From NCBI GenBank assembly GCA_036939975.1, contig JALLPB010000532.1, positions 1 to 14,923 of the forward strand: a stretch of 14,923 nt of DNA. Direction: 5' to 3'. Within the stretch, counting starts at the first letter, position 1; each line of letters opens with the position of its first letter. This stretch comes from Cyclostephanos tholiformis (lineage: Eukaryota; Bacillariophyta; Thalassiosirophyceae; Thalassiosirales; Thalassiosiraceae). Shown here in pieces: positions 2,358-14,923 of the stretch. Under the pieces are notes generated by a model, which was given only the letters and a program-made list of their open reading frames with translations, made no database searches and was not told the DNA's origin. The position numbers and the translations under genes were made by a program.

Positions 2358-4367
2358 ATGCCCATCGACATTAACTCCCTCCGCACCTACAAGGGTGGCG
2401 ATCCGGACGCATACCGCCTCTACATGACCCAGAGGTACAAGGACCCGACCATCGGTGCGCTTTTTTTTTTTTTTAAGGATGTGGGGCGTTCCGGGTCCAG
2501 TGTCGAGATCGAATATATAATATTGCGAATTCGAACGACCTTCCCCCCCCTCCCCCCCCCCCCCCCCTACCCGCTTGAATAAGCGTCATTTTCATTTTGT
2601 GTGCGGGAAGAGGGGAAATGATTCTATCGGTTCGGTTCGATGGATTGACGAATGAAGATTTCTTTTCATGTTATGTCGTACGTGTGTTTTCTAGCCGAGG
2701 ATAATTATTTCCCCGAGCCCGGAAACAAACAACTGATTCCTCCCGTCATTCCTCTCCTCCTCACCCACTCCCTCTGCCTCGTTCTTACATTTGCTCCCTT
2801 GGGCCACTCGCACTGTTGGGCCCTTTTTTTCTCTCTCGACATTATTGTTGCTATTCATGTCGAAAAACACCCCCCCCACCACCTCCCATCCGGTCGAACT
2901 CGTTTGTCGTTCTTTTTTTCCATTCGACTCTTGGAATATATTGCGATTATACATATAATTCGCCATGTATCGCGTACAGTGGACCAGGTCCTGGCCAAGG
3001 ACGAAGCGTGGCGCGACCTCCGTGGACAGATCGATGCCCTGCGCACCTCCGTCAACAAGCTCCAGCGCGACGTCATCGCGCCGAAGAAGAAGTCGGGCGA
3101 GTCGTGCGACGAGGAGGTGGCGCAGATGAAGGCCATCAAGGACGAGATCGACGCGATGGAGGCGAATCTACCAATCATCGCCGAGGAGAGGGACGAGCTA
3201 CTTAATCGCATCGGCAACGTCGTTGATCCGGAGGTTCCAATAAGCGACGATGAGGATGCCGATAACCTCGTAGTGGCGCTATATCCGGAGCCACTCGAGG
3301 CCGAGAGCGCAGATGGCATGAAGCCGCTGTTGCCATCGCCAATCTCCAAGCTCGTGTACACGCTCCCAATGACGAAGCCCCTAACTCACGACGACCTTTT
3401 GTGGCGAATCGACGGGTATGAGCCGGTTAGGGGTCAGGCCGTGGCCGGACACAGGGGATACTTCCTTAAGAACGCCGGCGTCCTACTCAATCAGGCCCTC
3501 ATCAATTACGGCATCGCCTTCCTGCGCAAGCGCGGCTATCAGGTACTGCAGCCACCGTACTTCATGAAGAAGGAGATCATGGCGGGCATCGCTCAGCTCG
3601 AGGACTTCGACGAGCAACTATATAAGGTTTCGGGAAAGACGGACGATCCGGACGGTAATACAGAGACATACCTCATCGCCACGAGCGAGCAGCCGATATG
3701 CGGTTATCACCGCAACGAGTGGATCGACGACAAGCAGCTACCCTTCCGATATGCAGGAATATCGACGTGCTTTCGTAAGGAGGCGGGATCCAGCGGACGG
3801 GACATACGCGGGATCTTCCGCGTACATCAGTTTGAGAAGATAGAGCAATTCTGCGTTGTCGTGGACGACTTCGAGGAGAGTTCCAGGGAGCAGACGCGCA
3901 TGATTGACGCCGCCAAGGAGTTCTACGAGAGCCTCGGTTTCCCCTACCGCGTAGTTTGCATCGTGTCAGGCGCACTCAACGACGCGGCCGTAAAGAAGTA
4001 CGACCTCGAGGCTTGGTTCCCCGGTCAGAACGCATACCGGGAGCTAGTTAGCTGCTCAAATTGCACCGACTTCCAATCGCGTGGCGTCGGGGCTAGGTGC
4101 GGACAGAAAAAGACCGCAACCCCCTCCGGACAGAAGTCCAAGGAGGAAATGCTGAAGGAGACGGCGTCGTACGTGCACTTTCTCAACGCGACCTTGTGCG
4201 CCACCGGGCGTGGGATATGCTGCCTATTGGAGAATTACCAGGAGGAGAACGGTGTCAGGATTCCGGAGGTTCTGGTCCCGTTCATGGGCGGAATCGACTT
4301 CTTGCCCTTCGAGAGGGGACCGATGGAAGCGACGAAGGGGGAGAAGAAAGGAAAGGGGAAGAAATGA
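2358..4367 (+). CDS. SERRS: seryl-tRNA synthetase, cytosolic type (two exons)
   Basis: Charges tRNA-Ser with serine. CDS = join(2358..2454, 2980..4367), 494 residues. Exon 1 encodes MPIDINSLRTYKGG through DPTI; a phase-1 intron then splits the codon for V33, giving DPTI-V-DQVLAKDEAWR, which restores the family's N-terminal pattern. Residues about 34-110 are the charged helical arm that contacts tRNA. The class II catalytic core follows: TSEQ (267-270), motif 2 FRKEAG (297-302) and GIFRVHQFEKIEQF (310-323), and motif 3 GRGICCLLENYQ (442-453) followed by GVRIPEVLVPFMGG. The protein ends in a Lys/Gly-rich tail. There is no organellar presequence before the MxIDxNxxR-type start, so a cytosolic role is inferred. 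An acidic stretch (119-128) precedes the core. Length is normal for eukaryotic SerRS. An ATG at 2652 in the same frame as exon 2 lies inside the intron and is not the start. Confidence 0.95.
2455..2979 (+). other. intron of the seryl-tRNA synthetase gene
   Basis: 525 nt with donor GTGCGC at 2455 and acceptor CGTACAG ending at 2979. The splice restores the conserved SerRS N-terminus in phase 1. It is five to seven times longer than most introns in this window and contains homopolymers: T(14) at about 2461-2474 and a nearly pure C run at 2543-2567. The frame used by exon 2 happens to be open through the last 330 nt of the intron, which would mislead a gene finder into an N-terminally wrong model. 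Confidence 0.9.
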
Positions 4368-4907: not shown

Positions 4908-7562
4908 TCAGCTGCTCAACTTTTCGGCGACGATTTCTTTTACGGCGGCCGCCTTCATCGCGTTCTGCTCCACCAGCCTCTCGATGCGGCTGGCCTCGTT
5001 CATGTTCGCTATCCGAGCCTGTCGGGACACAGCCTCGGCGAGGCTCATGTCTTCTGGAACGGCCAACTCCACCGATGCCCCCCCGATCCCCACGCCGACG
5101 GTCTCACTGCTGCCGATGACTTCCATCTCGGCCGCCACCGGCATTATTGTCGCGTCGCTATCCGCCATGGCGTTCTTCCTACTGAAGAAGCCGCGGATCA
5201 GATTCTCGTCCCCGTCGTCGCCGTCCTCGCCATCGAAGAACCCCAGCAACCTCTCCACCCGGACTTGGAACACCCGCTTCTCGTCACCGTCGGCCACCTC
5301 GAATTTCCAACCGCGGCTCATCACGAAGTCTCCAACGCGTGGGATTTCCCCGGCGCAGAAGCAGAGAAAGCCACTGAGCGTGCCGTACTCCTTCAATACC
5401 TCCTCCTCGTCGAGACTAAGGCCGAGGACGGCGTCGACGTCTTCCAGGTCGGCGTCGCCGCGAATCAGAAAGGTGCCATCTTCCTGGAATATGATGGAAT
5501 CTTCGGCAAACACGAAATCTTCCTCGTCGTCCTCATCATAAATTTCGCCGACGACTTCTTCCACAATGTCCTCCAACGATACCAACCCCTCAGTGCCACC
5601 GTACTCGTCCACGACCACGGCCATGTGCACCCTCCTCCTACGCATCTCCTGCAGGACGCTCCAACCGTTTGCAGTCTCCGGGACGAAGTAGCACGATTCG
5701 ATCAAACCGGCGTCGTCGATAGTCGTCTCCATCCTCGACGCCAATTGCGATCCGGTCAAGGATCGGACGTAACCGTCCTTGGTCTGTCCAGTGGGCGGAT
5801 CGATGAAGGACAATTTGCCAATATCCTCCTGGGAGGAGGAGGAGGAGGAGTGCTGCTGTTGTTTCTGATGCAGCCTACTGTCGGCCTCCACGTCTTCCCA
5901 CTCCCCGTCCACAATGCCGTCCACGTCGTCCTTGTCCTCCTCCTCCTCTTCCTCCTCCTCCTCCTCTCCCTTCGATATGACCATCGACGACGTGTCCCCA
6001 CTCGATGTCGGGGGTCGACGGTACTCCCCATCCACGAGCACGCCCTTGACGAAGAAATCCAACACGCTCTTCGCGAGTACGATGCCCACGATGTTATCGA
6101 TCTCGCCCTGATAGACTGGTATGCGACTGTATCCGCTCTCCCTCACCACGCCCAACACGCTCGCGACGGACATCGTGCGCGGTACCGCCACGACCTCGAC
6201 GCGCGGTTTCATGATCTCGCGCACCTTCCGATCCTGCAGGTTCAACACGCCCTTGATCATCTCCTGCTCGGAGTGATCTATGGTACCGGAATCGCGCGCT
6301 CCGGTGACGATGAGGCGCAATTCCGAATCGGACACGCCCGTTTCCTCCTTCGCCTTGACCCCGAAGAGCCGTAACGTCGCCTTCGCGAGGTAGCTCAGTG
6401 CATACCCGAACGGTCCGACGGCGTTCGCTAATACGTTGATCGGGGGTACCATAAGTCGCGCGACCCTCTCGGCGTTGATGACGCCAATGTTCTTCGGCAA
6501 TAGCTCCACGAAGAATAACGTTATGGCCGTCAGGAAGATCGCGCTCCACTTCTCGGCAATGGCGGCGCCGAAGATGTGATCGGCCAGGTGGGTGAATAAG
6601 GTCGTCGCGTATATGGAACACGCCGTGGACGTGACGAGTATGGTCGTTAGTACGCGCGTGATATCCTCGTTCAACGTTTGGAACGTCCCCCTCCTCCTCT
6701 TGCGTCCCTTCCTGCCCATTTCGGACGATAGACCATCATTTCCCAATAACTTCTCCTCCTCCTCGGCGAATTCGCGCACCTTCCACGGATACAACGTCGT
6801 GATCGCGATTTCCGCGGCGTGCAACAGGGCGAGGGCGGTGAATATGCCCAACCACAACGACAGCTTCGACACGAGCTCGTTCGTGGTCAGTGGAATGATC
6901 GGGGCATCGGGATTGCGCTTGGGCATGCCCCCCCCCACCGACGCATGCGCGAGCGGGAGGAGGATATTATTCCCCACGATGCCGCCGCCGACGCCGACGC
7001 CGGCGTGGGATGACGACGAAAACGACGCGACGACGTGGACTAGGAGGACCGTGAGGAGGGCCAATATCGGACCGCGCCTCGGGAGGATGCATCGTCCGAA
7101 ATACGACGACGACGACGTCTTCGCCACATCATTCATCGTCGCTGTCTTTTTCGACTTCTTCGGCGTTTTGCCGGACGTCGTCATCGTGCCGTGGTCGCCG
7201 ATCGTCTCGTCCCACCCCATCCCCGTCCCGCCGATGATGCGATTGCCAGCGCGGGATAATGCGCGGAGCAAGGCGCGGCCCGGCGGACCCTTTCGACGAC
7301 GATCATCGTTATCGTCATTCGCAATCATCATGGCAGTGCCCTCCTCGGCCATCGCAGTCGTCGTCATCGTCCCTCCACGTTGCCACCGCCGCCATCCTCG
7401 CGTCGTCGTCGACGACGGGGCTAGCGAGAGCAGCGAGGGGGACGAGTACGCGGAGAACGACGGCGTCCGCGACGACGACGACGACGACGACGACGTGGCG
7501 ATGCCGCCAACGCCAACGCCGGCGCCGATGAAAATTAACGCAGAGAGGACCCTCTTCGTCAT
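4908..7562 (-). CDS. CNNM/CorC-type DUF21-CBS-CorC_HlyC membrane protein
   Basis: An intronless 884-residue protein of the CNNM/CorC (UPF0053) family, which exports or transports Mg2+ and other cations; plant homologues include chloroplast envelope proteins. Order: a basic, low-complexity leader (1-160) opening with a hydrophobic signal-like segment (5-21) and a Ser run; a hydrophobic segment at about 164-180; the DUF21 membrane domain (about 232-400) with further helices near 232-258, 302-325 and 340-358 and the conserved ELLPKNIGVINAERVA (353-368); CBS 1 (about 447-505, MKPRVEVVAVPRTMSV to IVGIVLAKS); an Asp/Glu/Ser-rich insert (about 512-585, including ten consecutive Glu); CBS 2 (about 614-672, VDEYGGTEGLVSLEDIVEEVVGEI pattern); and a CorC_HlyC domain (about 680-775). 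The last 100 residues are family-atypical and end in a charged helix. Plastid location is inferred from the leader. It shares a 172-bp divergent promoter with the sulfotransferase-fucosyltransferase gene. Confidence 0.92.
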   Translation of the reverse strand: MTKRVLSALIFIGAGVGVGGIATSSSSSSSSRTPSFSAYSSPSLLSLAPSSTTTRGWRRWQRGGTMTTTAMAEEGTAMMIANDDNDDRRRKGPPGRALLRALSRAGNRIIGGTGMGWDETIGDHGTMTTSGKTPKKSKKTATMNDVAKTSSSSYFGRCILPRRGPILALLTVLLVHVVASFSSSSHAGVGVGGGIVGNNILLPLAHASVGGGMPKRNPDAPIIPLTTNELVSKLSLWLGIFTALALLHAAEIAITTLYPWKVREFAEEEEKLLGNDGLSSEMGRKGRKRRRGTFQTLNEDITRVLTTILVTSTACSIYATTLFTHLADHIFGAAIAEKWSAIFLTAITLFFVELLPKNIGVINAERVARLMVPPINVLANAVGPFGYALSYLAKATLRLFGVKAKEETGVSDSELRLIVTGARDSGTIDHSEQEMIKGVLNLQDRKVREIMKPRVEVVAVPRTMSVASVLGVVRESGYSRIPVYQGEIDNIVGIVLAKSVLDFFVKGVLVDGEYRRPPTSSGDTSSMVISKGEEEEEEEEEEDKDDVDGIVDGEWEDVEADSRLHQKQQQHSSSSSSQEDIGKLSFIDPPTGQTKDGYVRSLTGSQLASRMETTIDDAGLIESCYFVPETANGWSVLQEMRRRRVHMAVVVDEYGGTEGLVSLEDIVEEVVGEIYDEDDEEDFVFAEDSIIFQEDGTFLIRGDADLEDVDAVLGLSLDEEEVLKEYGTLSGFLCFCAGEIPRVGDFVMSRGWKFEVADGDEKRVFQVRVERLLGFFDGEDGDDGDENLIRGFFSRKNAMADSDATIMPVAAEMEVIGSSETVGVGIGGASVELAVPEDMSLAEAVSRQARIANMNEASRIERLVEQNAMKAAAVKEIVAEKLSS

Positions 7563-7734: not shown

Positions 7735-10700
7735 ATGACCAGCATTCCCCCCGCTGATCCATTCGCGCCGCCGCCGCGGCGACGAACCGATTGCGGCGCC
7801 GTTGCTGACGATGATGATGTTCATGGTAAGACGAGGCGCCGCACTTTCTTCCGCGACTTGGTCCTCCTCCTCGTCTTCGTCGTCGTCGTCGCCGTCGCCG
7901 CGACGTCGATATCGATCATCTCGATCTACTCCGCGACCATCGTCAATGGCGGCGGCGAAAGCGGCGGATCTCGATGGAATGACGACGACGAGACCGATGT
8001 CAATGCCGACGTTGTCGATGGACCATCAATGACGATGCCCCATCGGGAGGAGAAGGAGGGGGAAGAGGAATATCTTCTCACGACCATGCCGTCCCTATTG
8101 CGTCCCGCGGACGGACGAGGGCGATCATTATTGTTGTCATCTCCGAATCCTCCATCGTCGTCATCTTCGTCGTCATCTTCGTCGTCGTCGTCGTCGTCGA
8201 CATTGTCGGCGATATCAATCCAGTGTCCCGAGGGCTTCCGTGTCCCGACTCCCGACGTGGGAGGTGCGGGGGGGGGGTCCAAGCAAACGCAGCAACATCA
8301 ACGAGGCGGCTACATGCATCATTCGTCGACCTACGCCGCATCCTTCCCGGGAAGTGGGGACAAAATGATTACCAAATACCTCGTCGAGGGTATGACGGGA
8401 CTCAGGGTCGTTGAGGCATCGTCGTTCGGCGGGGGGGACGGGGGGGGGGGGAGGGGGGGGCCGATGCCTCGGAGACGAGCGGGGGGGGGGGAAGGAGGGG
8501 CGGGAAAAGGACGGGGGGGGAAGAGGGCTGCTGGAGGAGTGGCGGTGAGGACCCAGTGGCCCCACACATCGGGAAAATTGGCGTCGTGGGACGACGACAT
8601 ACATCGTGCGTTCGTGGTATTGCGCAATCCCCTCCATGCCGTGCCGTGCTACTTCGATCGATTGTGAGTGAATGTTCGCTATTATTTACTGCATTGTACT
8701 CTCTCTCTCTCTCTCTCTCTCTTCGAATTAGTTCGGCATTCTTTTCATACCTAACAAAAAACATCCATTTCGTCGTCTCGAACGCGACTTCCTCCCCCCC
8801 CTCCCGCGTCCCTTTCCGCCCCATCATCCATCTAAATGGGAAAACGTTAACTACGCACCGTATAACGCCAGATACGAACTACGGAATCATCTGCCCACCG
8901 GCTCTGCGTCGCTTCCGCAATATTCGGCGGACTCGCGCAACGCGTGGGTGAATTGGCGCGATAAACAGCTAAATTCCCAGATGATGCTATACCGTCGGTT
9001 CGTATCGTTCTGGATGGAAAGGTTCACATCCAAGGACGAGGGATCCCGACTTTACTTCTCGTACGAGACTTTCGTGGATCCGATGTCGGGGCCGGGGGAG
9101 GCGGTACGACTCGCGAATTTCCTCGCGGCGGGGCTTAGGCAAGACGCCATGGACTGGGCCATGAAGTCCATGGAGGACGGGGTCGCGGGCGGCGGCGGCA
9201 ACGATGACGACGACGACGACGAAAGCGGTGAGCATCCCATCGACGTCTTCCTTAAGGGGGGAGGGGTGAAGAGAGGAGGAGACGGCAGGGGTGGTAGCAA
9301 AGATATCAGTCCAGAGGACGTGATCGACATGGCGCTTGGTGAGGCCACGAGGTCGATGGTGAAAATTGAGGACGTTCCTTGCGTTTGGAGGGAGGTGGTG
9401 CATTCGACAATTGCGTCGTCGTCGCCTACGTCGCGGAAGTCGGAGGGGGATGTCAGGAAACGTCGATCCATCGTCGACGACGAGGAGGAACATCGCCTAC
9501 TGGCGAGAAATTGGAATTCGGCCGAAAGGCCGTACTTGCCGGAAAATCTCGCGGAGATGTCCCAGATGCTACTAGAGCTGATGAACCGATGGAGCCGCCA
9601 CCAGCGACTCCTCTCCATACTGGCCGTATACCACCGGGAGGTGAACAGGGCGTACCTGGAGATCACGGGCCAGCTCGACGGGGCAATAGTCGAGGGGGAT
9701 GGGCTGTCTCGTGCGCAACAAGAACAGTCATTGAAACGGCCGCAAGAAAAGCCGGCGTCGGCAGGGCCGTCGGTGCTCCCGCACGGGAGCTTTCATGTGA
9801 TACAGGCGTCTCATCCCAATGCCAACGTGGCGTCGATCGTCGCTAGCAATTGGCTCATGGGGCTGTTTGAGCCCAAAAAGGACATCGCTTTCATGAACTT
9901 TGACTGGCCTGATGAACCAATCAAACAATCTGGTCTGGATGTCGTCATTAATTCGAACCTCGTGACAAAGACGAACAAAGTAGATCTATTGAGCTTGTAC
10001 AAACTCATCAGACGTGAGTTTAACGCTGGAATAGTCGATCAATGTCCATGGTTTCCATGTTTACTCAAACTTTTGTTATATATCTCTGTTTCTTTCGATT
10101 TTGAATCGAATTAATAGCGCAATTTGACGAGGTGTTCTTCGTCGTCTCGAATCGCGGTCGCAGTCGCATCAACGACGAAGTGTGTGGCTACAAAAACGTC
10201 CTATGCATTGAATATGAGGAATTGCGGTACGACAACGTGGACGAATTGCGCGCCATGGTCGGCATGCTCACCCTGAAATTTCGGAAGCGATTCGAATACT
10301 TCTTCGGCGCGAATAATCCCGACTTGCTCTCCCCCGAGAGCGAAAGAAACGCCGTCGAGAGGCTCGACGCCACCGCGCTCGCCGCAGCAGCCTTGAAGGA
10401 CGAGCCGCCGGAGAAGGTCGACCTGAGATACGGCGTGCGGGGAGGAGACGGGTTCAACATGGACGATTCGGTGCCTGCTCTGATCATGCCGTCCGATCGT
10501 AGACTCCGTCGACGTTTGTCGATCGCACTGCCGGGCGGCGGATGCGAAGTAACTTGGCCGCAGCCCCCAAAGAGGCGTATACAAACGTCGTACGCGGCGT
10601 CGTATCCGGGTAAGTTTTGGCTGCATAGAGCGACTCGGGTGTTTCCATTTGTTAGCAATTGCGACCCATTCAATCTCAATCGCCAATTGTCATCACTAGG

Positions 10701-13700
10701 ATGCGGTGCGCGGATGACTTGGAATTTGGTGAGTGTCGCCACCTAAAAGAGGGTTTCATTTTTCTCTTTAGTCTGACATTATTATTCTGCCGCACAAAAT
10801 GAACGTTAGATTGAGGCATTGACTGGAATTTGGACCGGTGACGATTGGGATAATAATAAGCGTGGTCGTCGAGTAGTGACCGTCAAGTAAGACATTTTCA
10901 TCGTTCTCTCAATAACAGTCAAAACTTGGCGCTAACTCAACACACATAATTACTTCATACGATTATTATTCTTGACAGGACTCACTATCCACATGATGCT
11001 GGCAAGCTGGTAAGAGATCAGTCAGACTTGTATCGATAATTCTTTTATGACTCTCACTATTGATTGATTCTTTTATCTGACAGGTATCTTGGGATGACGA
11101 AATCAATCGTGCTTTAGTCATTATAAGGAATCCAATGAACGCCATTCCTTCATTTTTCAACCATATGTAAGCTGAAAACACTGCTGTTATTCATCTAACC
11201 CTTTCGTCAGATCTAAGTCTCACATATATTTGTTACCAATGGCCGAAAAGCTACGAAATTAAGAATAATCTAGCCATTCACAGCCAGCGAGCGCCCGTGG
11301 GCGATTGGGTGAGTGAAACACCATAAACCATTTGAAATCGTGAGAACTGTGCAACAAGACGATATCGTTTATACATCAACCTCAATTCACTGCCACAGAT
11401 TGAATGGAGAGATAGATTAGCAATGTCTCAGGTTACCAAATTCGCGACATTCGTTGATTACTGGATGGAACGCTTCAACAAATCGAATCATGATCGCATA
11501 CTCATCTCCTACGAAACCCTTACTGACGACAACAATGGACCGGAGGAGGCTATACGAATATCCAACTTTTTGTCTCAAAGTGAAGGCGTAGATCCAATAG
11601 ACACAGAATTAGTGCCCTGCATCTGGCGATCCGTTGTGAAATATAAAGAGCAACCGAAAGAAGTTCTAGAGAAGAAGCTTGACGATGGCAGTCGGCGACT
11701 TGATCCCTTACACCATGATTCTCAGCGCACTGGCCCAACCGAACGGCCTTATACGGCCGAACTGCTCAACGCTATGTCCGAGATGCTGTCGGGCTTGATT
11801 CTAAAATGGGGTAATCGTCACATGCGCTTACGAACAGTACTAGAGGAATATCAGCAGGATGTGCATGCTGCATATCTCGCTCTTAATAAGGAGTCGCCAC
11901 CGCCGAGTTCAAGAAAAAAAATCCACGTTTATCAAGTTTCGGTAGCAGCCTATGGGTCCACAGTGTTGAATAACCTTCTGGTGGGTCTAATAGATCCTGA
12001 TGCGGCGTTCAAGAATTCTTCCGTGGTAACCAAAACTCATGATACGAACTTACTCGAGATCTACAAGAGCGAACGGCCAAAGTTTGACGAAGTGTTTTTC
12101 GTTGTTTTAAACAAAGGCAATAACCCTCAGACACGAATCGACAATGAAATATGTTCGTACGACAATGTACTATGTATTGAGTACGAAGAACTCCTGTACA
12201 ACAATATCGAAGAGCTGCATGCCATGGTAAACAATATGGCAAATAAATTTCAATCCAGATTTGAGTACTTTTTTGGACCGGGATTGCTAGGTGAGAGCCA
12301 AAGGAGGGAGGCGGTGAAGAGACTAGAGATCATCGATAACGCAATCGCTGCCCTGGAAAGTCAGAGCAAGGCTAATGCAACCATGACCGATGAAACAATA
12401 GTGGTTGATAGTAAAGCTATGGTATCGACACGCTTCGATGTAAGTGGAAAATCATTTCATATCTTTCAAGTGTCGTATCCTGATATCGAACGAAGTATGG
12501 AACAAACACTGGCAAACACCGCAATAAATTGGCTCATGGGTTTATTTGACCCCGCCGGAGAGTTCAGTTTCATGGTTAACAATCCTGAGCAGACTGTGAG
12601 GCAGCACGACATGACTGTTCCGATTGACTCGGTGAGTAAAGTTTCTAACATAGGTTCGAAATGGTAGTGCGAAGCCTTTTTTGCAGATGTAACCTTGATC
12701 AACTTCTAAATGTATTTATTCAATGGGTTTCCCGCCCGTGCTTTTAGACTGTTGTGACAAAAACTCACATTCTTGATCTTATGATGCTGTACAAGCATCA
12801 TCGATCATTTTTCGATGAGGTATTTTTTGTGATTTCTGGGACTAAAACGGAGATGACAGCCGAATCGTGTCAGTATGAGAATGTACTGTGTATTCAATAT
12901 GAAGATTTGAGATTCTCTACACCACAAAATATGGAAACTGTGGTCAACGATCTGACGAATAAGATTCGTGCAAGATTTGAGGTGCGTCAACTTTTTGCAT
13001 CATTGATAAATTCAACGAGGTATACTCTACTTATTTCAACTACGATGTGCATTGATCTATTTTTCAAAGTACTTTTTTGGGCCGAATTTTTTTAGTCATG
13101 ATAAAGTTGTTTCGGCTATCCGACGTCTGGATAGAATGACCCAAGTAGCCGCCTCCCTGGCGAACAAGCCATTTTCTGTGACAGACCCAAAATACGGCAT
13201 TCACGGAGGACTTCATAACCAGCCTGCTCCCGTCTCTGACAATGACATGATGGCTGATAGTACTGGGAAACTTTTCTACTGTGGTGGAGCACATGGATAT
13301 CTACAAGTTCGAACAAATTTTAGGTATTCCACGTTTGGACTATTTCTAGCTAAGTCGCTCTTCCCAGAGCTCATGGGCGGCATAGAAATAATCCAGCCAG
13401 GTGACCAGGTCAAGAATACCGCCACCATGCTGACAGAAGATTCCATTAAAAAAGCAACCGAAGATGATTTGCTCATCGTTCATTCTCATCAGTTCTGTGA
13501 CGTTTCAGTGAATGAATTCCCCGGAACTCAGCTTCATATCAATGTAAGTCCCAACCTTGACTAGTAACTATTTTTCGCTTTCTCGATGGTAGAATTATAT
13601 ATTTTGCTATTTCACTGTTCTCTCCGCAGACTGAGTATTATGATCTTCACCCACAGTCCAATCTTAACGTTGATGGGATGTTGACTCTTGACTATTTACC

Positions 13701-14551
13701 ACCTGGAGAGAAGACTTTTGTGATCGGTTTACACGAGGACACTAGTCGAAGTATTCGTGTACCCTATTGCTCGATGAGGCTTTGGTTCCTGCACATGAGT
13801 GGAAAAGCAGATTTGAGGAATATTTTGGACCATTTTTACAAGCCAAAAAACAGCAAAGAGAACTTCTTGCTTTACATTGTGAGTGATTGTTATTGGCAAA
13901 AAGTCTGTCATTTGACTCCGTGCTTCTCTGACAGTATGTTCTACAATATTCTGTTGCGTCTTCTTTCTCAAGAACTCCCATTATATTGAGTATCGTGAAC
14001 GTGCAGCTTTAGCATTAGCTGGCATTGCCCCGATTCACACAGCTGGGAAGTGCCAGGGTAATGTTGAAGCTCGTCCGGCCATTCCCAATGATGATAGTCC
14101 AACTCAATGCGTGCCCTTTGATGAAAACAAAAGACCATCTTCAATTCAGCCGATATTGGGTCACGTTGGAAAGGATCATCAACTTGATAATATAGAAATT
14201 TTATCCCATTACCGTTATGCGCTTGTGATGGAAAATTCAGACTCACCTGGCTATGTGTCAGAGAAGATTCTGCATGCCTTCTTATCAGGGACAGTTCCTA
14301 TATATTATGGAAGTAGATTTGTCTTCGATGTATTCAACGCCAAAGCATTCATCTTCTTTGATTTGGATATGCCGCACCAAGCATTAAGTCAGATCCAGTA
14401 TTACGAACAGAACCCCGTGGAATATGAGAAGATGTTGAGCGAGCCGATACTAGCAAATGGTCAGGAGACAATAGAGAAATATTTTTCTTGGGATGAGACC
14501 GTTGGAAATGGAAAGTTAAAATCACGTATACGTTCTTTGGTTGGACTGTGA
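7735..14551 (+). CDS. multidomain sulfotransferase-GT10 fucosyltransferase fusion (13 exons)
   Basis: CDS = join(7735..8663, 8872..10013, 10118..10609, 10700..10728, 10810..10886, 10979..11009, 11084..11166, 11251..11308, 11399..12631, 12748..12981, 13070..13543, 13630..13878, 13973..14551), 1869 residues. The total is divisible by three and no junction creates a stop. Introns are 74-208 nt, mostly with GTGAGT or GTAAG donors. A short basic cytosolic tail and one membrane helix (about 41-66) suggest a type II Golgi enzyme. Then come a Ser/Asp-rich stem; sulfotransferase A1 (about 198-575); degenerate module B1 (615-790); sulfotransferase A2 (845-1110); B2 (1120-1266); B3 (1298-1485); and a GT10 fucosyltransferase (1503-1869). 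Inferred role: transfer of sulfate from PAPS and fucose from GDP-fucose to a glycan. The second half is AT-richer than the first. The boundaries at 8871, 11250 and 13972 rest on homology between repeats or to the family rather than on strong acceptors. A split into two genes is possible but nothing in the sequence requires it. Confidence 0.82.
8164..8199 (+). repeat. (TCG/TCT)n coding for poly-Ser in the stem region
   Basis: A triplet repeat within exon 1 of the fusion gene gives about 15 consecutive Ser (residues 141-155) between the membrane helix and sulfotransferase module A1. The Ser-rich stem could be flexible or O-glycosylated. Confidence 0.8.
8431..8523 (+). repeat. poly-G tracts inside coding exon 1
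   Basis: At least four runs of seven or more G within about 90 nt encode a Gly/Arg-rich insert in module A1; another G-run lies near 8269-8278. The strand has clear G-quadruplex potential. Frame is kept overall, since the conserved TQWPHTSGKL segment follows in frame, but run lengths here are prone to error. Confidence 0.8.
8699..8722 (+). repeat. (CT)12 microsatellite in first intron of the fusion gene
   Basis: A pure CT repeat ends 9 nt before an AG at 8730-8731, making an ideal-looking acceptor. That AG would shift the frame and meet TGA at 8949-8951, so I place the productive acceptor at 8871 instead. Confidence 0.9.
9785..10416 (+). other. degenerate sulfotransferase-like module B1
   Basis: Residues about 615-790, with a phase-1 intron (10014-10117) inside. 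It opens with SFHVIQASHPNANVASIVAS, in register with the A-module P-loop but without the Gly-Ser/Cys-Gly core. LVTKTN matches VKTHYP, FDEVFFVVSNRG takes the place of RALVIIRNP, and VLCIEYEELRYDN resembles the helix-strand segment after the 3'-phosphate site. It closes on RFEYFFG and ERLDATALAAAALKDEP. Catalysis looks unlikely; a structural or acceptor-binding role is inferred. Confidence 0.65.
10579..11887 (+). other. sulfotransferase module A2 of the fusion protein
   Basis: Residues about 845-1110, spread over seven exons. The P-loop is SYAASYPGCGARMTWNL (848-864): Gly855-Cys856-Gly857 where A1 has Gly-Ser-Gly. VKTHYPHDAGKL follows (889-900). The 3'-phosphate motif RALVIIRNP (909-917) has Arg915 and Ser923 exactly eight residues apart, as in active sulfotransferases. 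FVDYWMERF, SYETLTDDNNGPEEAIRISNFL, VPCIWRSVV and ERPYTAELLNAMSEML align with A1 in order. This copy looks the better candidate for activity apart from the Ser-to-Cys change in the P-loop. Confidence 0.75.
11915..12355 (+). other. sulfotransferase-like module B2
   Basis: Residues about 1120-1266 in a single exon. It opens with IHVYQVSVAAYGSTVLNNLL, keeping the Gly-Ser-Thr of a P-loop that B1 and B3 have lost. SVVTKTHDTNLLEIYK, FDEVFFVVLNKG, VLCIEYEELLYNN and RFEYFFGPG align with B1 and B3. B1 and B3 have introns within this segment; B2 has none. Confidence 0.65.
12449..13216 (+). other. degenerate sulfotransferase-like module B3
   Basis: Residues about 1298-1485 with introns at 12632-12747 and 12982-13069. 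It aligns with B1 and B2: SFHIFQVSYPDIERS, NWLMGLFDP, TVVTKTHILDLMMLYK, FFDEVFFVISG, VLCIQYEDLRFST and RFEYFFGPN. The P-loop core is gone. The tail DPKYGIHGGLHN matches DLRYGVRGGDGFN after B1, so the unit plus its linker was duplicated. Confidence 0.65.
13268..14551 (+). other. C-terminal GT10-type fucosyltransferase domain
   Basis: Residues about 1503-1869 over three exons. The first part (KLFYCGGAHGYL onward) is the variable acceptor-side half. The second half carries the GDP-fucose site: FLLYI-NSHYIEYRERAAL joined at the 13878/13973 splice, TAGKCQGN (1701-1708), HYRYALVMENSDSPGYVSEK (1756-1775) and LSGTVPIYYGS (1781-1791). The ENS...Y...EK pattern and the G-T-V-P-x-x-x-G element are diagnostic of GT10 alpha-1,3/4-fucosyltransferases. 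Glu1764, Tyr1771, Glu1774 and Lys1775 are present, so the domain looks intact. The acceptor sugar cannot be told. Confidence 0.85.

Positions 14552-14868: not shown

Positions 14869-14923
<55 letters not shown>
14869..14923. repeat. (GT)n dinucleotide microsatellite
   Basis: An uninterrupted GT repeat runs to the end of the window, so its full length is unknown. Confidence 0.97.

Follow-up and report, generated by a model that had tools for sequence, protein, structure and literature searches.

The window analyzed is the whole 14,923-nucleotide stretch of Cyclostephanos tholiformis DNA (contig JALLPB010000532.1). Positions 7735 to 14551 of this window hold one gene of a conserved family. An independent rebuild of its coding region returned the 13-exon, 1869-codon open frame proposed in the first-pass annotation. 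The encoded protein carries a membrane anchor, two sulfotransferase-like modules (ST1 and ST2), three D modules, and a C-terminal GT10 domain, located as follows.

7735..14551, + strand: whole coding region, 13 exons, 1869 amino acids (aa); GT-AG splice model, open frame, homolog-backed junctions
7735–8663, 8872–10013, 10118–10609, 10700–10728, and 10810–10886, + strand: exons 1 to 5; GT-AG splice model
10979–11009, 11084–11166, 11251–11308, and 11399–12631, + strand: exons 6 to 9; GT-AG splice model
12748–12981, 13070–13543, 13630–13878, and 13973–14551, + strand: exons 10 to 13; GT-AG splice model
7846..7938, + strand: single signal-anchor/transmembrane segment, about aa 38–68; Kyte-Doolittle windows
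8308..9655, + strand: ST1 module, aa 192–571, predicted degenerate sulfotransferase; split by intron 1
9785..10437, + strand: D1 module, aa 615–797; split by intron 2; no Pfam match
10567..11875, + strand: ST2 module, aa 841–1106, spanning exons 3 to 9; sulfotransferase motifs, Sulfotransfer_1 below cut-off
11126..11152, + strand: ST2 3′-phosphate motif RNPMNAIPS, aa 915–923; R and S present in 15 of 15 ST2 modules
11915..12391, + strand: D2 module, aa 1120–1278; Pfam matches at chance level only
12449..13201, + strand: D3 module, aa 1298–1480; split by introns 9 and 10; one chance-level Pfam match
13265..14545, + strand: GT10 fucosyltransferase domain, aa 1502–1868; Pfam PF00852, solved alpha-1,3-fucosyltransferases
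14252..14266, + strand: predicted GDP-fucose contact residues Y1771, E1774, and K1775; alignment to 2nzw

Gene model and membrane anchor

All 12 introns are of the GT-AG type and measure 74 to 208 bases, and the spliced frame stays open through 1869 codons up to a stop. Exon junctions were checked by global alignment to ten chosen homologs (of the 33 described below), using a 16-residue window per junction. All 12 junctions are covered by these alignments. At every junction that a homolog spans, the window contains two gaps at most; the exceptions are junctions 1 and 9 in P0010, whose record starts at the former and stops at the latter. Junctions 3 to 8 are the best supported (12 to 16 of 16 residues identical), and the weakest are junctions 1 (8 to 10 of 16) and 10 (6 to 11 of 16).

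Third-position GC is 0.69 through exon 4 and 0.44 beyond it, with the break near 10.73 kb, and the Thalassiosira profunda and Skeletonema marinoi versions of the protein lack ST1 and D1, with the anchor lying right before an ST module. Both observations would fit a false joining of two or more adjacent genes, made either in the first reading or in the assembly. However, the D1-ST2 join is unbroken in seven long-form homologs (P0001 to P0004, P0006, P0010, and P0012), junction 3 is identical at 14 to 16 of 16 positions in those nine of the ten aligned homologs which span it, and no second hydrophobic segment is found ahead of ST2. In addition, exon 11 contains the D3-to-GT10 join, so these two modules cannot be separated by splice choice. 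The homologs crossing the join and the shared exon 11 led us to reject both a two-gene reading and an assembly chimera at the GC break; a false join of any kind appears hardly credible.

In the whole protein, 19-residue Kyte-Doolittle windows of at least 1.6 are confined to aa 35–70, which bears out the single membrane anchor annotated earlier; the basic residues KTRRRTFFR precede the segment. Type II Golgi enzymes have this layout, with a lone anchor at the N terminus and the catalytic part behind it. The encoded protein probably has type II topology, and its location is presumably the Golgi.

The C-terminal domain

Sequence comparison firmly assigns the C-terminal domain to GT10. Pfam PF00852 scored 27.6 bits in the whole protein and 32.7 bits for the domain, against a cut-off of 23.9, and the solved alpha-1,3-fucosyltransferases 5zoi and 2nzw matched with an E-value of about 2e-11. 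A profile search placing the C terminus outside GT10 had been named beforehand as the outcome that could overturn this assignment; it did not occur. E1596, in the motif NTEYYD, is conserved in the long forms. Alignments to solved chains end short of this residue, and from motif order it is a candidate for the catalytic base, a Glu of the N-terminal half in GT10 enzymes. Y1771, E1774, and K1775 align with Tyr246, Glu249, and Lys250 of Helicobacter pylori FucT (2nzw), which a figure legend in PMC11468063 gives as GDP-fucose contacts.

The sulfotransferase-like modules

Two P-loop sulfotransferase modules had been annotated. The residue set that we used as a test, K-x-H after the P-loop together with R...S, is complete in ST2 (YPGCGARMTW, K890-T-H892, and R915...S923), for which the claim stands, and incomplete in ST1, which is degenerate. 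There, SFPGSGDK is followed by R-T-Q instead of K-T-H, C305 replaces the 3′-phosphate Ser, and glycine-rich and acidic low-complexity inserts are present. We assume for the K-x-H and R...S (3′-phosphate site) of ST2 the roles that they have in cytosolic sulfotransferases. K, H, R, and S are all present in 15 of 15 ST2 modules, in 0 of 6 ST1 modules, and in 72 of 83 standalone diatom modules. ST1 is best read as a predicted pseudo-sulfotransferase.

Pfam Sulfotransfer_1 was not reached when the full-length protein was scanned, and ST2 excised alone scored 18.4 bits (E = 0.0015), under the cut-off of 22. Searches of solved structures yielded no sulfotransferase with ST2 alone and only E-values of 0.019 and worse with the ST family profile. 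ST2 is assigned through its relatives. Among 41 picked proteins of a large ST2-related diatom family, 33 match Sulfotransfer_1 at E ≤ 0.01 (best, 4e-9), and P0034 and P0035, which are close ST2-bearing fragments, are annotated as PF00685 in precomputed annotation. When four relatives were scanned alone, P0128 passed (29.5 bits), P0053 fell just under the cut-off (20.3 bits), and P0067 and P0037 gave no match. Fused homologs match at E ≤ 1 in 11 of 30 cases, with a best value of 1.1e-4. The evidence supports ST2 as a sulfotransferase-type domain with its key residues kept, and it is predicted to use PAPS.

The D modules

The annotation of three related degenerate modules proved half right. D1, D2, and D3 are mutually 35 to 47% identical (blastp between modules), but their descent from sulfotransferases was not confirmed. 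Against Pfam, the D modules matched no family above cut-off, and a D profile search of the PDB found no solved relative (best E = 0.41). Comparison of D with ST by hhalign gave a probability of 0.7%, with only 22 columns aligned. A home-made D-ST profile alignment was run with three gap settings, each compared with 60 shuffles of the columns. It scored 15.0 where the shuffles averaged 12.0 (2 of 60 reached it), 15.0 against an average of 11.4 (1 of 60), and, with loose gaps, 33.2 against 21.1 (0 of 60). Tests of the D modules as putative degenerate sulfotransferases are thus mixed and, for the most part, negative.

Conservation of the fusion in diatoms

A check of domain architecture, proposed along with the first-pass annotation, revealed sulfotransferase-GT10 fusions in other diatoms. 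All 33 homologs found have ST-like and D modules, and 31 have a C-terminal GT10 domain (28 of 30 scanned match the GT10 profile at E ≤ 1); the four with organism names are all Thalassiosira or Skeletonema. P0003 (1715 aa) and P0004 (1729 aa) display the full order anchor-ST-D-ST-D-D-GT10, six modules end to end. Module order is the same in five long-form homologs, and the other 28 of the 33 are shorter or variant. This conserved architecture supports the annotated plan of one gene with one anchor, an upstream sulfotransferase-type domain, and a C-terminal GT10 domain. An NCBIfam scan of 30 members gave nothing at E ≤ 0.01.

In the ST tree, ST1 and ST2 adjoin one clade of standalone diatom sulfotransferases (support, 99/91), and the modules of a short-form sister family are placed apart. 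Two independent fusions were considered for this reason and set aside, since the topology test does not reject a single clade of all fused ST modules (p-AU = 0.218); this test grouped with the fused set P0065, which is labeled standalone and lies among the short forms. Single-protein searches detected no other copies of the modules in the genome, save one weak ST match (C321, 26% identity, E = 6.6e-4). The genome also contains a strong match to GDP_Man_Dehyd, a family belonging to the GDP-fucose route, and silicon transporters, which mark it as that of a diatom. An ST-profile scan of viral contigs returned 47 pattern matches and no relative, and a viral origin was discarded.

ST2 (70 to 83% identity) and GT10 (62 to 69%) are the best conserved modules. 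Compared with six homologs, ST2 ranks first and GT10 second, with D2 tying GT10 in one. The short-form sister family keeps the fusion, although K-T-H has lost its K as well as its H in 20 of 20 modules and reads Q-T-R or similar. Because the pair is missing throughout, the ST part of the short form may be structural. In addition, eight short-form members (four of them near-copies) lack the EYYD-equivalent segment and have the conserved K of GT10 replaced. Fusion alone is thus no proof of two activities.

Two rival readings give the long form a single activity. In one, the protein is a fucosyltransferase that contains a pseudo-sulfotransferase as a scaffold: GT10 alone would be catalytic, and the ST and D modules would bind nucleotide, or acceptors that are anionic or sulfated, and would set substrate choice or Golgi localization. 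The short forms, the degenerate ST1 (6 of 6), and the retention of D modules without known activity in 33 of 33 homologs agree with this. A mere scaffold, however, would not need the exact K-T-H that ST2 retains, all four residues occur in every ST2 module, and ST2 is better conserved than GT10; we consider such a scaffold rather unlikely. Conversely, GT10 could serve a sulfotransferase as an acceptor-recognition domain without transfer, given that the eight short-form members demonstrate that residue loss is possible within the family. Against this, Y, E, K, and the EYYD glutamate occur in this protein and in the long-form homologs reaching the GT10 region, except P0007 (F and N for Y and K), and GT10 identity is 62 to 69%; a nontransferring GT10 seems quite improbable.

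Discussion

It is plausible that one long-form protein adds both fucose and sulfate, because the key residues of ST2 and GT10 are intact and these two modules show the highest conservation. The joint explanation that we favor, with chances that we judge about even, is a Golgi type II protein in which a live ST2 and GT10 are coupled on a shared chain. Its lumenal part would be the module string ST1, D1, ST2, D2, D3, GT10. GT10 would move fucose from GDP-fucose onto an acceptor glycan, and ST2, tethered to it, would move sulfate from PAPS onto the same chain, probably onto the new fucose or a neighbor, with proximity coupling fucosylation to sulfation. ST1 and the D modules may place the acceptor or keep the two centers apart. 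The two activities, the shared acceptor, and the roles of ST1 and D are what we infer from the module set.

The P-loop region of ST2 may resemble that of the animal sialate O-sulfotransferases WSCD1 and WSCD2. According to passages in PMC9304399, these are Golgi type II proteins acting on glycan ends; they differ in having a WSC domain in place of GT10. Their 5′-PSB motif PxxGxTW, given in the same passages, is not matched by PGCGARMTW of ST2, which keeps P and G and has T-W two residues later. We count this mismatch against the coupled ST2-GT10 explanation, along with the view, stated in a passage of PMC11468063, that polymerization precedes sulfation in brown algae. Standalone diatom sulfotransferase-domain proteins (for example, those of Ditylum brightwellii, Chaetoceros tenuissimus, and Cyclotella cryptica) share ASYPGxGA[RK]MTW, VKTHYPH, and R[NH]P..[AS]IPS with ST2; no D or GT10 was found in these records.

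Within the coupled explanation, the acceptor may also be protein N-glycans or O-glycans rather than a secreted sulfated fucan, which is a choice of acceptor and not an alternative to it. We rate this possibility somewhat short of even. Characterized Phaeodactylum GT10 enzymes work on N-glycans, as reported in parts of PMC6536626 and PMC9826595, and GT10 of brown algae is deemed unlikely for fucans in a passage of PMC11468063. On the other hand, the word “sulfotransferase” is absent from the main texts of PMC6536626 and PMC9826595, so the Phaeodactylum enzymes are not described there with such a domain, and Thalassiosira and Chaetoceros are reported, in a section of PMC7896085, to secrete fucose-containing sulfated polysaccharide. 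Both centers might act on a sulfated fucose polymer. A dedicated fucan-building machine, in which GT10 would extend or cap the polymer with fucose, ST2 would sulfate it, and ST1 and D would form a substrate track, is an unlikely extension of this idea; if true, this would be the first enzyme to be identified for the synthesis of fucose-containing sulfated polysaccharide in diatoms.

Known GT10 alpha-1,3/4-fucosyltransferases (H. pylori FucT 2nzw, FucTA 9s6a, FUT9 8d0o, and the Phaeodactylum FucTs) share the domain with this protein, which keeps the equivalents of Tyr246/Glu249/Lys250 but has ST and D modules joined ahead of GT10. The C-terminal CXXC noted for the Phaeodactylum enzymes in a section of PMC6536626 is missing here, since the last 129 residues contain no cysteine. 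Two Phaeodactylum proteins in that paper, Phatr3_J46109 and J46110 (798 and 707 aa), have long N-terminal parts and a single GT10 domain at the C terminus. Direct homologs are the S. marinoi “glycosyltransferase (family 10)” (53% identity over 83% of aa 600–1869) and T. profunda ACHAXT_011002 (62% over 83% of the same region), both of the order anchor-ST-D-D-GT10 and carrying GT10-based or hypothetical names. The sulfated fucan pathway of brown algae likewise has fusions of same-pathway enzymes, but of other enzymes: fucokinase with GDP-fucose pyrophosphorylase and, in Nemacystus, a sulfotransferase with an alpha/beta hydrolase; the sections of PMC6418280 covering these describe no fucosyltransferase-sulfotransferase fusion. 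Our literature searches found no description of a sulfotransferase-GT10 fusion either, in line with the earlier remark that no characterized enzyme with this architecture was known. As far as these searches reach, both enzyme classes on one chain are an undescribed pairing.

The family offers in D a conserved module outside known families. Its natural series, with ST2 intact, ST degenerate, or GT10 altered, allows the role of each domain to be tested, and the fusion, conserved in Thalassiosira and Skeletonema, offers one specific locus as a candidate for knockout work and assays. The gene may contribute to making the fucose-rich, sulfated sugars that diatoms release into the ocean.

Gene structure and surroundings

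Splicing of 7735 to 14551 with 12 GT-AG introns (74 to 208 bases) yielded 1869 codons and a stop, reproducing exactly the exon-intron model of the first-pass annotation. The gene lies on one complete contig (14,923 bases) of a 24.95-Mb genome in 1566 contigs; silicon transporters encoded in the same genome (687.6 bits) show that the organism is a diatom.

Other features of the contig
673 to 2046, +, short-chain dehydrogenase gene (PF00106)
2358 to 4367, +, Seryl-tRNA synthetase (PF00587, PF02403); start 2358 and intron end near 2980 judged by eye
4911 to 7562, −, CNNM/CBS/CorC-type membrane protein (PF01595, PF00571, PF03471)
15 to 133 (TCG-type) and 14869 to 14923 (GT), microsatellites at both contig ends

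The CNNM/CBS/CorC-type gene is divergent from the fusion gene, ~170 bases apart. The assembly likely stops at the contig ends because of the terminal microsatellites.

Exon junctions were compared in ten homologs chosen out of 33, with alignment windows of 16 residues per junction. No window contained more than two gaps at any junction spanned by a homolog, except at junctions 1 and 9 of the relative P0010, which are the ends of that record. Junctions 3 to 8, which create the small exons of the second sulfotransferase-like (ST) module, ST2, kept 12 to 16 of 16 residues, junction 1 kept 8 to 10, and junction 10 kept 6 to 11. Introns 3 to 8 split ST2 at 10700 to 11398 (smallest exon, 29 bases); the same region of P0010 is seemingly a single open frame, as inferred from the ends of P0010, which appear intron-derived. 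Intron 1 (in ST1) and intron 7 (11167 to 11250, in ST2) occupy equivalent places in identical phase.

Third-position GC changes within the gene from 0.69 (amino acids 1 to 864) to 0.44 (865 to 1869), the 5′ part being GC-rich with few introns and the 3′ part GC-poor with many; the three neighboring genes have 0.72 to 0.79. The homologs argue against a chimera of two genes at this composition break.

A conserved family of fused proteins

Relatives were sought in a 5.8-billion-protein set, ~8000 word-sharing candidates being scored per search, and 33 distinct ones were found (P0001 to P0033). Modules were called with HMMs that started from those of the window and were refined iteratively on the relatives. 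ST and the family-less D modules were present in all 33 and the fucosyltransferase domain, GT10, in 31; the ends of the two GT10-less records, P0010 and P0012, were read as coinciding with the position of window intron 9. This search for ST and GT10 fusions, which the first-pass annotation had proposed, bears out its claim of a single gene.

Module orders among the 33 relatives
ST-D-ST-D-D-GT10 (long form, as in the window), 5; P0003 and P0004 complete, including the anchor
ST-D-D-GT10, 4; including Thalassiosira profunda and Skeletonema marinoi; P0032 with a mere scrap of ST
ST-D-D-D-GT10, 1
ST-ST-D-GT10, 1
ST-D-ST-D-D, without GT10, 2
ST-D-GT10 (short form), 20; ST truncated in P0031, GT10 truncated in P0033

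By these orders, the core unit is anchor-ST-D-GT10 and the window protein is an expanded version. The short form includes a Skeletonema menzelii protein and an MMETSP1067 transcriptome protein (taxid 265564, Thalassiosira punctigera); the fusion is directly evidenced by a transcript for the short form only, not for the long form.

Module identities between the window protein and six homologs
ST2, 70 to 83%, six homologs
GT10, 62 to 69%, six homologs
ST1, 50 to 59%, four homologs
D1, 53 to 60%, four homologs
D2, 40 to 66%, six homologs
D3, 46 to 58%, six homologs

A D1 value of 25% over 55 residues for P0008, which is D1-less, was dropped as an artefact. ST2 had the highest identity in all six homologs, and GT10 was second in five and tied with D2 in P0001.

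The GT10 domain

PF00852 scored 27.6 bits on the window protein against a cut-off of 23.9, confirming the earlier assignment of the C terminus to GT10. The domain matched five solved chains, all fucosyltransferases (best E, 1.8e-11, improving to 8.1e-22 with the family profile). Y1771, E1774, and K1775 aligned to Tyr246, Glu249, and Lys250 of 2nzw, which a figure legend marks as GDP-fucose contact residues (PMC11468063). It was the only PF00852 place detected in the genome by an exon-by-exon search, which is liable to miss split genes.

In 8 of the 20 short forms (P0014, P0024, and P0026 to P0031; four are near-copies), GT10 lacks the EYYD segment, which in the window protein holds E1596, and the conserved donor-contact lysine is changed. 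Judged from these residues, the eight fusion-keeping proteins are possible pseudo-fucosyltransferases. The EYYD gap directly borders the position of intron 11 in the window gene, so part of it could stem from splice-site placement in those proteins that are gene predictions; P0024, however, is a transcript.

One intact and one degenerate sulfotransferase module

Neither ST1 nor ST2 reached Sulfotransfer_1 in the full-protein scan; ST2 excised alone scored 18.4 bits, under the cut-off of 22, and found no sulfotransferase among solved structures. A profile of seven ST modules found 265 proteins. Among the 120 matches listed, many are standalone, and some carry PF00685 or the name "Sulfotransferase domain-containing protein" (Ditylum, Chaetoceros, Cyclotella, and Stephanodiscus); the ST2-bearing fragments P0034 and P0035 are both annotated PF00685. 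In alignment A4 (41 picked proteins: 40 from this search plus P0005), 33 gave Sulfotransfer_1 at E ≤0.01; of four ST relatives scanned singly, one passed the cut-off. The 15 solved structures matched by the A4 profile included 13 sulfotransferases; the matches were weak (best E, 0.019). Eight further Sulfotransfer_1 places occur elsewhere in the genome.

Key residues were counted in 124 near-complete ST modules out of 154 sequences, partial modules being dropped. The K-x-H and R...S residues, whose catalytic roles we presume from cytosolic sulfotransferases, were complete in 15 of 15 ST2, 72 of 83 standalone (records without D or GT10, which may be fragments, as P0065 probably is), 0 of 6 ST1, and 0 of 20 short-form modules. 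In ST1, R replaces K and the serine is gone in all six, and H is kept in two; in the short form, Q replaces K in 19 of 20, R replaces H in 18, and the serine is kept in 9. Thus, of the "two P-loop sulfotransferase modules" first described, ST2 stands with its full residue set, and ST1 is degenerate.

In the ST tree, ST1 fell on one side of a branch with support 100/100, and ST2 likewise (97/98). ST1 and ST2 adjoined each other (95/72, not starred), and together they adjoined one standalone clade (99/91). Grouping every fused ST module into one clade was not rejected (p-AU, 0.218).

The D modules

D1 to D3 are 35 to 47% identical to one another, conserving FHIFQASPP...STVLxNWLMGLF, VVTKT[HN], and FDEVFFVV. 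No Pfam family scored over its cut-off, and no relative was found among solved structures. Against ST, hhalign gave a probability of 0.7% over 22 columns; our own profile alignment exceeded shuffles by a small margin at two gap settings and by a clear one at the loosest, where the alignment was gap-filled. The motif order resembles that of sulfotransferases, which probably explains the earlier label "degenerate"; the three modules are indeed mutually related, and their putative sulfotransferase kinship is only a lead.

Functional implications

The open-access paper passages searched contained no description of an ST-GT10 fusion. Passages of PMC11468063 give an average of 3 GT10 members and no GT23 per diatom genome, doubt that GT10 is the fucan synthase of brown algae, hold that sulfation there comes after polymerization, and question the presence of fucans in diatoms; a passage of PMC7896085 names Chaetoceros and Thalassiosira as a source of fucose-containing sulfated polysaccharide. 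Among the matches listed, no fused protein was Chaetoceros-named, a standalone ST (P0128) being the sole Chaetoceros find, which makes it less likely that the fusion has a general role in the making of diatom fucan.

In eukaryotes, glycan sulfotransferases use PAPS and GT10 enzymes use GDP-fucose as donor, both in the lumen of the Golgi. The window protein is one polypeptide whose single hydrophobic segment lies at the N terminus, and key residues are kept in both ST2 and GT10. We infer that both domains would be active and coupled on one glycan. The proposal of one protein adding fucose and sulfate is reasonable once trimmed: going by its residues, the protein probably has one live sulfotransferase (ST2) and one live fucosyltransferase (GT10), alongside a degenerate ST1 and three unassigned D modules. 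Counting against dual activity, the short-form sister retains the fusion though its ST center is changed. Together with the altered GT10 of some short forms, this means that the family probably includes pseudo-enzymes, and in some of its members the fusion may serve positioning.
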